DNA of 64,000 nucleotides from Geodermatophilus ruber. GTDB taxonomy: Bacteria > Actinomycetota > Actinomycetes > Mycobacteriales > Geodermatophilaceae. The position numbers and the translations under genes are program-made. Of the stretch, positions 40,994-45,317 are shown piece by piece (position 1 is the stretch's first letter; each line of letters starts with the position of its first letter). Below the pieces are notes generated by a model. The model was not told the DNA's origin. It ran no database searches and saw nothing but the letters and a program-made list of their open reading frames with translations. The stretch is from NCBI RefSeq assembly GCF_900114385.1, contig NZ_FOSW01000001.1:62001-126000 (forward strand). Reading direction: 5' to 3'.

Positions 40994-43540
40994 TCAGGTG
41001 CGGACGAACAGCCGCCGGTGCGGTGCCCCCGGTGCGGCCGAGCGCACCCCGGTACGGGCCAGCAGCCAGCTCTCCAGCCGCTCGTCGGGCAGCGGCCGGC
41101 TGACCAGGAAGCCCTGCAGCTTGTCGCATCCCATCTCGGCCAGCAGGTTGCGGGTCAGCTCGTCCTCGACCCCCTCGGCGACCACCCGCAGGCCCAGGTT
41201 GTGCGCGAGCTCGATGATCGAGCGGGCGATGAACGACTCCCCCTGACTGGTGGACATGCCCAGCACGAAGGACTTGTCGATCTTCACCTCGTCGATCGGC
41301 AGCTGCCGGAGCTGGGACAACGAGGAGTAGCCGGTGCCGAAGTCGTCCATGGACAGCCGCAGGCCCAGTGCGTGCAGGTCGGCGAGGACGGTGCTGCTGC
41401 GCACCGAGTCGTCGACCACGCTGCCCTCGGTGAGCTCGAGGGTGAGCAACTCCCCCGGCACGCCGTGGCGGCGCAGGGCCCGGCGCACACGGTCGACCAG
41501 GTCGGGCTCGGTGAGGCAGCGCGCGGAGAGGTTCACCGCCACGGACAGGGCGATGTCCTGGTCCAGCCACCGGCGGCAGCGAGCGAGGGCCAGGTCGAGC
41601 ACGTGGTCGGTGAGCAGGCCGATCCGGCCGATCTGCTCGGCCAGGTGGATGAAGTCGTCCGGCGCGATCGCCCCGTAGCGGGGGTGCGCCCAGCGGACCA
41701 GCGTCTCCACGGACACGATGTCGGAGGTCCGGGCGTCGATGATGGGTTGGAAGACGACGCTGATCTGCCCCTCGGCCATGGCCTGCTCGAGCTCGGTGCC
41801 CAGCTGCAGCCGGCGGAGGCTCTGCTGGTCCAGCACGGGGTGGTAGCTGGCCACGCCACCGGCCCCGGAGCCGGCGAGCAGGGCCACGTCGGCCCGCTGC
41901 ATCAGCGTGCCGGCGTCGGCGCCGTGGACGGGCGCGGCGGCGACGCCGATGGAGAGCGTCACCTCCAGGTCCAGCCCGGCGACGCGGGCGCGGGTGGACG
42001 TCGCCTCGCGCAGCCGGCGCGCGGCGCGCTCACTGGCCGTCAGGGACAGCCCGGGCAGCAGGACGGCGAACTGCTCGCCCTCCATGCGGGCCACCAGGGC
42101 CTGCGGCGGCGCGTGCTCGCGAAGCAGGCCGGCGGTGACCAGCAGCAGCTCGTCGCTGGCCGCGTGGCCGAGCGTGTCGGTGACCTCGGTGTAGTTGTCC
42201 AGGGCGGCCAGGATCAGGCCGCCGCGGGCCGCGACCGGGTCAGCGGCCAGCAGCGCGTCGATCTCGGCGGCCAACCGCTGCCGGTTGGGCAGCCCGGTGA
42301 GCCGGTCGTGGTCGGCGTCGTAGCGGATCTGGGTGAGCAGCTGCTGCTGCCGGATCGCCGCGTTGACGTGGGTGATCATGGAGTCCAGCGCGGCGCGGTC
42401 GTCGTCGGCGAAGGAGACGACGTCGCTGCGACGGTCGCAGATCTCCAGGTACCCGGGCTCCCCCGCGGCCGTAGCCACCGGCGCGGCGAGCAGGTCACGG
42501 ACGCCCCGACGGGCGAGCGCGGCCGCCTCCGGCTCGGTCGCCCGGCTCAGCGAGACCAGCACCGGCCCGTCGACGAGGCCGTCGGTCGCCCGCCGGCGGA
42601 TCAGGTCGTCGGGGTCGCCAGGCCCGTCGTACCAGGTCCGGCCATCCCCGGAGACCACGACCAGGCGCGGCCCCTCGTCCAGGTACGGGGGCAGCCAGAG
42701 GGCTACCCGGTCGGCGTTGAGCAGCTCCTGGACCGCCTCGACGATCCGCAGCGCGCCGTCCTCGTCCGCGCATACCTGCTCCACCCGCCGGGCGAACTCG
42801 TAGACCTGCTGGAGGCTCTCGCTCTCCCGCGTGACCCGCGCGAACCGGCGGTAGAGCAGGCCGAGGGTCAACAGGACGGGGACGAGCAGCAGCCAGGCCC
42901 AGGCCGTGTGGTCCACCAGCAACGAGCAGGCCAGGCCGACGACGACCGAGATCGGGTAGACGACCAGCACCGGAACGAACAGACGCGCCAGCCTTGCCCG
43001 TCCGGGGTTGCCCTGGGTGATCGTGATCGCTGCGACGACGACGAGGGTGCCCACCGCGGCAGCCGGCAGGATGGCCACCAGGTAGGCGAGCCACGTGCCG
43101 GGATCGGAGAGAGGGCCCGCGGGCAGCTGGTCGAGGATCAGGACGGCGACGCCGACCTGCAGCACGGTGACCGCGATGTTGACGAGGATCTTGGCCACGA
43201 CGGTCCGGTCACGGACGCTGATGACACCGATCGCCCCGGCCCATGCCACGGCCGTCCAGGCGCCATCCATCTGCACGAGCGAGACGACGAGCACGGCCTC
43301 GCTGACGGAGCAGTTGAAGGTGTGTGAGCGCACCTCGATGGGCAGGGTGAGCGACTCCGCCACGAGGAATGCGGCGAAGAAGGCCACGACCGTCCACGGC
43401 TGGACGGACCGGCCGGCCACGTCAGCCAGCAGGACGACGAAGGGCAGAGCGAGGGCGCTCACCCCAGCGGCGACCACATCAGGCTGCCGGAGCGCCGACC
43501 ACCGCTGGGTCGTGCGCGTGTCCAGGTCGGCCACGGTCAC
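40994..43540 (-). CDS. Membrane c-di-GMP protein: GAF, degenerate GGDEF, EAL
   Basis: The 848-residue product has six to seven membrane helices in the first 230 residues, a GAF-like domain at about 245-390, a GGDEF domain at about 405-560 and an EAL domain at about 585-835. The cyclase signature reads MEGEQF (about 487) instead of GGDEF, so cyclase activity is unlikely. The EAL side keeps its metal and catalytic residues: VETLVRW, NLSARCL, LELTEG, DDFGTGYSSLSQL, IDEVKIDKSFV and VAEGVED, so a c-di-GMP phosphodiesterase is the likely role. Start GTG at 43538-43540. A repeat-peptide gene lies just upstream on the same strand. Confidence 0.9.
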   Translation of the reverse strand: MTVADLDTRTTQRWSALRQPDVVAAGVSALALPFVVLLADVAGRSVQPWTVVAFFAAFLVAESLTLPIEVRSHTFNCSVSEAVLVVSLVQMDGAWTAVAWAGAIGVISVRDRTVVAKILVNIAVTVLQVGVAVLILDQLPAGPLSDPGTWLAYLVAILPAAAVGTLVVVAAITITQGNPGRARLARLFVPVLVVYPISVVVGLACSLLVDHTAWAWLLLVPVLLTLGLLYRRFARVTRESESLQQVYEFARRVEQVCADEDGALRIVEAVQELLNADRVALWLPPYLDEGPRLVVVSGDGRTWYDGPGDPDDLIRRRATDGLVDGPVLVSLSRATEPEAAALARRGVRDLLAAPVATAAGEPGYLEICDRRSDVVSFADDDRAALDSMITHVNAAIRQQQLLTQIRYDADHDRLTGLPNRQRLAAEIDALLAADPVAARGGLILAALDNYTEVTDTLGHAASDELLLVTAGLLREHAPPQALVARMEGEQFAVLLPGLSLTASERAARRLREATSTRARVAGLDLEVTLSIGVAAAPVHGADAGTLMQRADVALLAGSGAGGVASYHPVLDQQSLRRLQLGTELEQAMAEGQISVVFQPIIDARTSDIVSVETLVRWAHPRYGAIAPDDFIHLAEQIGRIGLLTDHVLDLALARCRRWLDQDIALSVAVNLSARCLTEPDLVDRVRRALRRHGVPGELLTLELTEGSVVDDSVRSSTVLADLHALGLRLSMDDFGTGYSSLSQLRQLPIDEVKIDKSFVLGMSTSQGESFIARSIIELAHNLGLRVVAEGVEDELTRNLLAEMGCDKLQGFLVSRPLPDERLESWLLARTGVRSAAPGAPHRRLFVRT

Positions 43541-43629
43541 CCGGTCTCTCGGGAAGGGGGAGGAACGGCGGCGCAGAGGCTAACAGCCTCAGGCAGTCGT
43601 TCCGGGGCGTCGGAAAGGCCGCCCATACC

Positions 43630-43669
43630 CGAAGGGGGTAGCCGGCCACCTGACCGGCTACCCCCTTCG
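43630..43669 (-). terminator. Strong hairpin between the RGTRWS peptide gene and the EAL gene
   Basis: A perfect 16-bp stem (43630-43645 with 43654-43669, loop of 8) starts 13 bases after the peptide stop codon and 90 bases before the EAL gene start. It has no T-run. It may terminate a peptide-only transcript or attenuate read-through into the EAL gene. Confidence 0.7.
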
Positions 43670-43682
43670 AAAGCGCTGGGGA

Positions 43683-43769
43683 TCAGCTCCAGCGGGTGCC
43701 GCGGCTCCAGCGGGTGCCACGGCTCCACCGGGTACCGCGAGCGGAACTCACGTGCGCATTCGTGCTCAT
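43683..43769 (-). CDS. Repeat peptide, 28 residues with three RGTRWS units
   Basis: From ATG at 43767-43769, preceded by GAGGAGG with four-base spacing, the product is MSTNAHVSSA followed by RGTRWSRGTRWSRGTRWS. The DNA is an 18-bp unit repeated three times, and all differences between units (CGC/CGT, GGT/GGC, CGG/CGC) are silent third-position changes, which argues that the peptide is selected. It has no signal peptide or Cys and is strongly basic and Trp-rich. It lies upstream of the EAL gene on the same strand with a hairpin between. Function unknown: leader peptide, secreted or modified peptide precursor, or ligand of the neighbouring protein are all possible. Confidence 0.8.
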   Translation of the reverse strand: MSTNAHVSSARGTRWSRGTRWSRGTRWS

Positions 43770-43807
43770 GACGCCTCCTCAGGCATGACGGACTGCAACG
43801 TGCGGCA

Positions 43808-43963
43808 GTCACCCAGGCGCGGGGGCAGAGCGTCGTTCGGTACGGACCGCGCCGGTGAGATTGCTGCCCGTCACCCGTCTGGGGCAAGCACCCACGATCA
43901 TGGGTGGGTGACGTGTCGCAATGTCGTCACTCTCTGCTACCTGAGATAGGCAGAACGTCACCC
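43808..43963. promoter_or_regulatory. Divergent regulatory region with repeated GTCACCC sites
   Basis: GTCACCC occurs at 43808-43814, 43870-43876 and 43957-43963, and inverted at 43906-43912. A minus-strand promoter candidate for the peptide gene, TTGCCC (43882-43887), 18-base spacer, CAATCT (43858-43863), holds one site in its spacer. No gene is supported between 43770 and 44167. Confidence 0.4.
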
Positions 43964-44056
43964 AGCAGTGTGTCCCCCGGGGGGCGCCGGGACGCGTGGG
44001 TGCGTGGGGGCCGGCGAGGCACGAGGGGCCGTCATCCACCGGCACCCGGGAGTGGC

Positions 44057-44646: not shown

Positions 44647-44656
44647 CATGTACCTG

Positions 44657-44738
44657 TGGCGGGTGAAGGATTCGAACCTTCGTAGGCTAAGCCGACGGAT
44701 TTACAGTCCGCTCCCATTGGCCACTCGGGCAACCCGCC
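44657..44738 (-). tRNA. tRNA-Tyr (GTA)
   Basis: An 82-base class II tRNA on the minus strand: acceptor GGCGGGT/ACCCGCC, D-arm GCCCGAGTGGCCAATGGGA, anticodon loop CTGTAAA in stem GCGGA/TCCGT, a long variable arm (CGGCTTAGCCT region) and T-arm GAAGGTTCGAATCCTTC. The anticodon is GTA. Confidence 0.94.
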
Positions 44739-44825: not shown

Positions 44826-45317
44826 ATGGCCGACTCATCCTTCGACGTGGTGAGCAAGGTCGACCGCCAGGAGGTCGACAACGCGTTGAACCAGGCCGCC
44901 AAGGAGCTCGGCCAGCGCTTCGACTTCCGCGGCACCAACGCCACGATCGCCTGGGCAGGGGAGGAAGGCGTCACCCTGCAGGCCGACACCGAGGAGCGGG
45001 TCAGCGCCGCCCTCGACGTGTTCAAGGACAAGCTGGTCAAGCGCAAGATCTCGCTGAAGTCCCTCGACGCCGACGAGCCGCAGTCCTCCGGCAAGAGTTA
45101 CAAGATCTCCGCACGCATCAAGCAGGGCATCGAGTCCGAGGTCGCCAAGAAGATCGCCAAGATCATCCGCGACGAGGGCCCGAAGGGCGTGCAGGCGCAG
45201 ATCCAGGGCGATCAGCTGCGGGTGAGCGGCAAGAAGCGCGACGACCTGCAGGCGGTCCAGCAGCTGCTCCGGAACCAGGATCTCGACGTCGCCCTGCAGT
45301 TCGACAACTACCGCTGA
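44826..45317 (+). CDS. YajQ family nucleotide-binding protein
   Basis: From ATG at 44826 (AGGAG 10 bases upstream) the 163-residue product starts [20 protein letters not shown] and contains [33 protein letters not shown] and the final [12 protein letters not shown], all typical of YajQ. Some YajQ proteins bind c-di-GMP and act as effectors; with a c-di-GMP protein gene nearby, that is an interesting but unproven role here. Its stop codon abuts that of htpX. Confidence 0.93.

Follow-up and report, generated by a model that had tools for sequence, protein, structure and literature searches.

The locus and its features

The window analysed here is a 64,000-nucleotide stretch of the Geodermatophilus ruber genome (contig NZ_FOSW01000001.1, positions 62,001 to 126,000). 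On its minus strand, a 28-residue open reading frame (ORF) containing three RGTRWS units lies upstream of a gene for an 848-residue membrane protein with GAF, GGDEF and EAL domains, which we propose is a receptor acting through cyclic di-GMP (c-di-GMP) and refer to below as the receptor. The features are collected in Table 1. Translation of the minus strand from 43769 to 43683 gives MSTNAHVSSARGTRWSRGTRWSRGTRWS followed by a stop. An earlier inspection of the window (the sequence-only reading) had described three 18-bp repeats with silent third-position differences and a strong GAGGAGG before the ATG, and had both right (minus strand, 43739-43686 and 43780-43774, respectively). The codon variants across units 1-3 are CGC/CGT/CGC, GGT/GGC/GGC and CGG/CGC/CGC. 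Tandem Repeats Finder (TRF) gave the array a score of 87 with a period of 18, second among the 88 TRF rows for the window. The peptide is basic and Trp-rich, and Pfam and NCBIfam scans of three peptides produced no usable match.

Table 1. Features of the peptide-receptor locus
Feature	Position	Strand	Basis
Multi-copy peptide gene, 28 aa, MSTNAHVSSA(RGTRWS)3	43683..43769	minus	counterpart in 26/26 genomes of genus
Unit 1, RGTRWS	43722..43739	minus	sequence
Unit 2, RGTRWS	43704..43721	minus	differences all silent
Unit 3, RGTRWS	43686..43703	minus	differences all silent
Ribosome-binding site GAGGAGG	43774..43780	minus	4 nt 5' of ATG; largely conserved in aligned leaders
Conserved 5' leader (putative start), short GCGG...CCGC hairpin	43770..43852	minus	leader alignment
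Putative -10, CAATCT	43858..43863	minus	A2 and T6 invariant across 45 aligned sequences
Putative -35, TTGCCC, 18 nt from -10	43882..43887	minus	putative, from sequence
Post-stop hairpin, 19-nt arms, 95% complementary, terminator-like without T run	43630..43669	minus	inverted-repeat search
TTAGCC, putative -10-like motif of receptor gene	43578..43583	minus	putative, from sequence
Membrane GAF-GGDEF-EAL protein, 848 aa, proposed receptor	40994..43540	minus	Pfam domains
Hypervariable N-terminal membrane domain, S-component-like fold (model), proposed ligand-binding part	42806..43501	minus	sequence comparison and domain model
GAF domain, residues 265-396	42353..42748	minus	Pfam
GGDEF domain, residues 409-555, signature EGEQF	41876..42316	minus	Pfam
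EAL domain, residues 583-816	41093..41794	minus	Pfam

Conservation of the peptide gene in Geodermatophilaceae

A first search of 41 genomes found clear short-ORF counterparts in the genus. The peptide ORF stands upstream of the receptor gene in every one of the 26 genomes of the genus and, in genus g25, in 22 of 23 genomes; in G117 (L237), which is among the 22, the first unit is irregular. The survey of relatives that the sequence-only reading had proposed therefore went in its favour: the ORF recurs beside the orthologous gene, with the repeats in frame. Not every true copy was caught by the peptide profile: G007, G024 and most g25 genomes were negative and the match in G023 lay in an unrelated place, but inspection showed the gene in these cases. 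A leader-plus-start pattern was present in 47 stretches from Geodermatophilus, Blastococcus, Modestobacter, Trujillonella and two records labelled otherwise. Across 68 family loci, of which L158 duplicates L227, the peptide gene lies shortly before the receptor gene, even with an insertion of ~2.4 kb on the other side, and the number of units varies from one to five between genes. In all family loci examined, the peptide gene thus accompanies the receptor gene, and, as in a peptide quorum-sensing cassette, a small ligand-like gene and a receptor gene form a conserved pair. Its recurrence next to the orthologous gene throughout the family puts the arrangement far beyond chance. Separately, locus L263, labelled 'UNVERIFIED_ORG: Bacillus sp. 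AZ43', carries a Geodermatophilaceae element; the record name looks wrong.

Selection on the repeat unit

Unit statistics were taken from 81 of 94 oriented loci. Those dropped were L150 (other family), L151, L152 and L161 (unrelated), L158 (the duplicate) and eight g25 loci without two full R...W. units in register (L223, L224, L230, L233-L237). The 81 genes hold 247 unit copies and, counting each gene's last unit, 51 unit types, in which Arg1 and Trp5 are invariant and 14 different residues occur at position 3. Between genes, the proportions of nonsynonymous (pN) and synonymous (pS) differences are 0.32 and 0.47. Among the copies within a gene, they are 0.008 and 0.405, with 10 residue differences in 1674, which confirms the selection on the peptide sequence that the sequence-only reading had inferred. 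Positions 3 and 6 vary freely between species, yet are identical among the copies of one gene. Where the amino acid is the same, codons differ in 35% of cases within a gene and 41% between genes, with 47% expected if independent; DNA homogenisation is therefore at most partial, whilst the amino-acid identity of the copies is kept. Exceptions fall in first units (Pro1 in L101, Ala2 in L106, a missing Arg in several g25 genes), in L149, where a last RGAKWS follows RGASWS units, and in L427, where RTTA is inserted between intact RGIKWG units. The peptide gene is real and conserved, and its units are uniform.

The peptide and the receptor membrane domain change together

A Pfam scan of the receptor at E 0.001 returned only EAL, GGDEF and GAF, with no 5TMR (PF07694) or transporter match. 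Since its signature reads EGEQF, the GGDEF domain is probably degenerate. In fold, the model of the N-terminal membrane domain resembles the S-components of energy-coupling factor (ECF) transporters; a PDB sequence search gave 0 matches, and ECF genes were not searched for. An own-genome paralogous receptor (L317, G000:C15:346582, an 877-residue frame) has the same membrane domain.

Between species, median identity in the same proteins is 41% for the membrane domain, 71% for GAF, 84% for GGDEF and 85% for EAL. In a partial Mantel test with the core controlled, unit distance and membrane-domain identity were correlated at -0.25 (0/2000 permutations), and unit positions 2, 3 and 4 were linked to the membrane domain. 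With flanking genes as a clock (65 loci, 2080 pairs), pairs with a marker value >0.94 had membrane-domain identities of 0.834 (6 pairs), 0.685 (6), 0.578 (10), 0.493 (6) and 0.486 (2) for zero to four unit differences. Within genera, the correlation of unit and residual was -0.59 (630 pairs; 0/2000 restricted permutations), and all 41 same-unit pairs had membrane domains at least 60% identical.

We also profiled identity along the cassette in twelve locus pairs. The nine with different units have leaders of 71-98% identity, a variable stretch from start codon to membrane domain, a step at GAF and a conserved GGDEF-EAL part; the variable stretch is milder in L098/L101 and L090/L107, where the units are similar. 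Of the three same-unit pairs, L114/L118 and L124/L160 have no dip in the membrane domain and L147/L148 a small one (83-88%). The peptide and the membrane domain change as one unit; as in the specificity cassettes of polymorphic quorum-sensing systems, the proposed ligand and sensor domain vary together and the output is conserved.

Trp repeats beside receptor relatives in other families

The membrane-domain profile matched 47/246 genomes of the class, source genome included. We examined 98 loci (97 outside the family plus the own-genome paralog) and left out four with <150 nt upstream. In 46/94, a long ORF whose tail is a chain of Trp pentads or hexads lies within 500 nt upstream; in a further five the Trp-repeat tail is cut by the contig end, and in nine there is a small precursor carrying a single Trp core in two to four copies. 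This gives 60/94 loci with an upstream Trp-repeat gene, compared with 1/94 on the opposite strand. Single-core endings (e.g. GRRWI, GHRWS) and two tails ~900 nt away (L314, L336) were not counted.

The S8 domain of one long tail ORF has homologues in all 46 (E 1e-5 or better). Pfam confirmed Peptidase S8 (PF00082) in four, with TIGR03921 below cut-off, and, by eye, the full frames of L344, L353, L329 and L322 have hydrophobic N-terminal stretches. Trp-repeat genes, mostly subtilases, thus adjoin the receptor relatives, and in these families the ligand tail sits on the protease itself. The small precursors include MTTSAVRAL...AGASWNKTTTKAGASWNAVVATKSGASWN and forms with SNGWQ x4, SIWN x3, SGWH x3, SHTWE x4 and GTRWG x2. 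Eight of the nine start with a hydrophobic stretch, judged by eye, the exception being L332 (TPGTGWHLI x4). Seven were checked, and in each the copies of the core share one amino-acid sequence while their DNA differs silently.

Tails and receptor domains also co-occur at the genome level: 43 genomes have tails, 47 have the domain and 29/246 have both, against 8.2 expected (p 2e-15). Tail-search matches, merged by hand, gave 66 tail loci, 26 of them upstream of a listed receptor and no more than 2 kb from it. Separately, L392-L415 contain many shorter frames (~470-550 residues) with a weak domain match and ASSWS/ANSWS-type tails upstream; the pairing may therefore extend beyond GAF-GGDEF-EAL proteins.

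Searches with the peptide profile itself gave matches in 18/296 genomes of the class and 54/397 of the order. Outside the family, only that in G035 (family f12; L150:5970-7607) was judged genuine, with RNTHWA x3 beside a membrane GGDEF protein; the rest were mostly long frames or stretches of low complexity, alongside a few short matches (L165, L168, L180). HHWGKR matches (L151, L152) were dropped as part of a longer secreted-looking protein.

Transcript layout and neighbouring genes

For the leader comparison, 45 sequences were aligned out of 77 leader references. The consensus RNA fold is a single 5-pair hairpin with almost no covariation, so we do not claim a riboswitch, and an Rfam scan of the leader gave nothing close to a gathering score. 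By eye, and uncounted, there is a second leader hairpin (GACTGC/GCAGTC versus GACAGC/GCTGTC). A consensus scan for sigma-70 sites called none at the putative peptide promoter, and a terminator scan did not call the post-stop hairpin. In 50/81 loci, the TTAGCC motif occurs in the 330 nt that follow the peptide stop, compared with 4.6% of shuffles; 70/81 loci have a helix of at least 9 pairs behind the stop, yet so do 45% of shuffles. This pattern favours separate transcripts for the peptide and receptor genes, though it is no proof. Further upstream, GTGAC/GTCAC inverted repeats lie at 43903-43965, before the peptide promoter, and TNAC-N5-GTNA was seen by eye in several relatives, a pattern resembling the BldD box.

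Divergent from the peptide gene is a Tad/TadG-like pilus protein (PF13400, 44168-44599). A divergent YajQ-like protein (44826-45317) is encoded ~1 kb from the peptide gene and is nearby in most family loci; YajQ is a c-di-GMP-binding family. Between these two genes is a minus-strand tRNA-Tyr (GTA, 44656-44738). There was no modification enzyme among the neighbours examined (GGDEF-EAL, Tad-like, YajQ, HtpX, KorA), no dedicated search having been made.

Proposed function and alternatives

We propose that the ORF encodes a precursor holding several copies of a short Trp peptide signal, which the adjoining membrane protein senses, and put the probability of this at about two in three. GTRWS probably forms the core of the signal, and the near-invariant Arg would separate the copies or mark where they are cut. 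In relatives, the repeats are carried by a protease that might free them, or by small precursors, most of them secreted-looking. The S-component-like domain would then bind the peptide from outside and signal via GAF to EAL, altering c-di-GMP. We infer the export of the peptide, its cutting and binding, and which way c-di-GMP changes. The sequence-only reading had offered a modified peptide precursor, a leader peptide, and a ligand or regulator of the next EAL protein; pairing, co-variation and the repeats outside the family strongly favour the last.

Several observations weigh against a secreted signal with a matched receptor. Judged by eye, the Geodermatophilaceae peptides lack a signal peptide, and export of this leaderless form is the weakest link. 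Neither an exporter nor a protease was found among the Geodermatophilaceae neighbours examined, unlinked proteins not having been searched, so the dedicated export or processing protein that a quorum-sensing cassette encodes with its ligand is not seen there. Co-variation of neighbouring genes shows co-inheritance and does not prove binding. There is weak co-variation of unit distance with GAF (partial Mantel -0.13, 4/2000), and position 6 showed no association with the receptor in the by-position test. Four same-unit pairs across genera have membrane domains only 39-47% identical, which speaks against a strict one-to-one code. By the same rule as above, 34/94 receptor loci lack an upstream repeat gene, among them the own-genome paralog, upstream of which no Trp-repeat gene is visible. 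Of the tail loci, 40/66 do not adjoin a listed receptor; three of these (L358, L373, L381) have a weaker domain match on the fetched piece, and several are low-complexity-looking frames in large genomes. Finally, the membrane part of the G035 receptor does not match the domain profile, for which reason that arrangement may be convergent or represent a second receptor type.

The alternative that survives best, although we consider it unlikely, is an intracellular partner: the peptide would bind the membrane protein from inside, with no export or cutting and with the repeats providing multivalency. Pairing and co-variation fit this equally well, and the missing signal peptides and the non-hydrophobic start of L332 speak for it. 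However, the repeats beside receptor relatives are S8 protease tails, four with hydrophobic N-terminal stretches; all but one of the small precursors start hydrophobic; the ligands of S-components such as RibU, ThiT and FolT bind from outside; and a copy number of one to five means that valence is not fixed. An Arg/Trp peptide that binds nucleotides or nucleic acids, or is antimicrobial, beside a receptor diversifying for another reason, would suit the composition, and co-inheritance is expected from linkage alone; we find it improbable, as it leaves unexplained both the identity of copies at positions 3 and 6 and the Trp repeats beside receptor relatives elsewhere. We give very little credence to a cis-acting leader or attenuator controlling the EAL gene via Arg/Trp supply or ribosome stalling. 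It would account for the conserved leader and the hairpin after the stop, but a promoter-like motif follows that hairpin in 50/81 loci, species-variable residues are identical between copies while codons drift, such repeats are C-terminal S8 protease tails in other families, and there is no Rfam attenuator match. A chance ORF or DNA-level repeat without product, of the kind that easily arises in GC-rich DNA and that most weak outside-family matches resembled, is refuted by what 81 loci show: conservation, an intact frame and silent differences.

A broader version of the secreted-signal proposal, to which we give even odds, is an actinobacteria-wide system in which extracellular (G/A)xxW(S/N/T/H/Q) signals, carried on secreted-subtilase tails (where self-cutting is possible) or in small precursors, are read by S-component-like c-di-GMP receptors. 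In Geodermatophilaceae, dozens of matched specificity types would define who responds to whom, possibly gating a motile-to-aggregate switch. A role in the switch between motile and aggregating cells is plausible: flagellar genes are present in the family, Blastococcus is described in passages of PMC9686282 as having motile rods and aggregating cocci, and passages of PMC8325347 record the twin-motif form of RsiG, a c-di-GMP-binding anti-sigma factor, in 16/16 Geodermatophilaceae species.

Comparison with known systems

This looks like a so far undescribed cell-to-cell signalling system of soil actinobacteria, in which peptide signalling is little explored. To our knowledge, the ligands of most c-di-GMP receptors are unknown. 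Here, dozens of natural ligand/receptor types, with the ligand readable from the genome, would make the trigger of a c-di-GMP enzyme testable with cheap synthetic pentapeptides. A search of the published literature, with preprints and most subscription papers outside its reach, found nothing describing the peptide or the peptide-receptor pair. If the proposal is true, the S-component fold, known from vitamin uptake, gains a role as peptide receptor. In the 5TMR-cluster S-component receptors (PMC11109136), too, a membrane domain of S-component-like fold can occur joined to GAF, GGDEF or EAL; the receptor studied here, by contrast, lacks a Pfam match to 5TMR. The words 'quorum' and 'autoinducer' are absent from that paper, and its available passages name no peptide ligand for the fold, one of them mentioning BceS and antimicrobial peptides.

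The upstream genes in other families are homologues of Peptidase S8/mycosin-like subtilases, but their Trp-pentad tails match no Pfam family except GETHR (PF05671), above cut-off on two of four scanned. The layout in Geodermatophilaceae is like that of ComQXP in Bacillus and agr in Staphylococcus, where the ligand gene lies next to the receptor gene's 5' part, the two are hypervariable together and conserved output domains flank them. It differs in that no ComQ/AgrB-like enzyme is seen beside the peptide gene, the ligand is multi-copy and a c-di-GMP enzyme carrying an S-component-like domain takes the place of the histidine kinase as receptor. Several identical short peptide copies per precursor are also found in yeast alpha-factor, whereas the units here are bacterial pentads around Trp with an unrelated receptor. 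Short signals cut from small precursors are likewise known from RRNPP/Phr, SHP and PapR of Firmicutes, but those act on cytoplasmic receptors after import, whilst the receptor proposed here is in the membrane.
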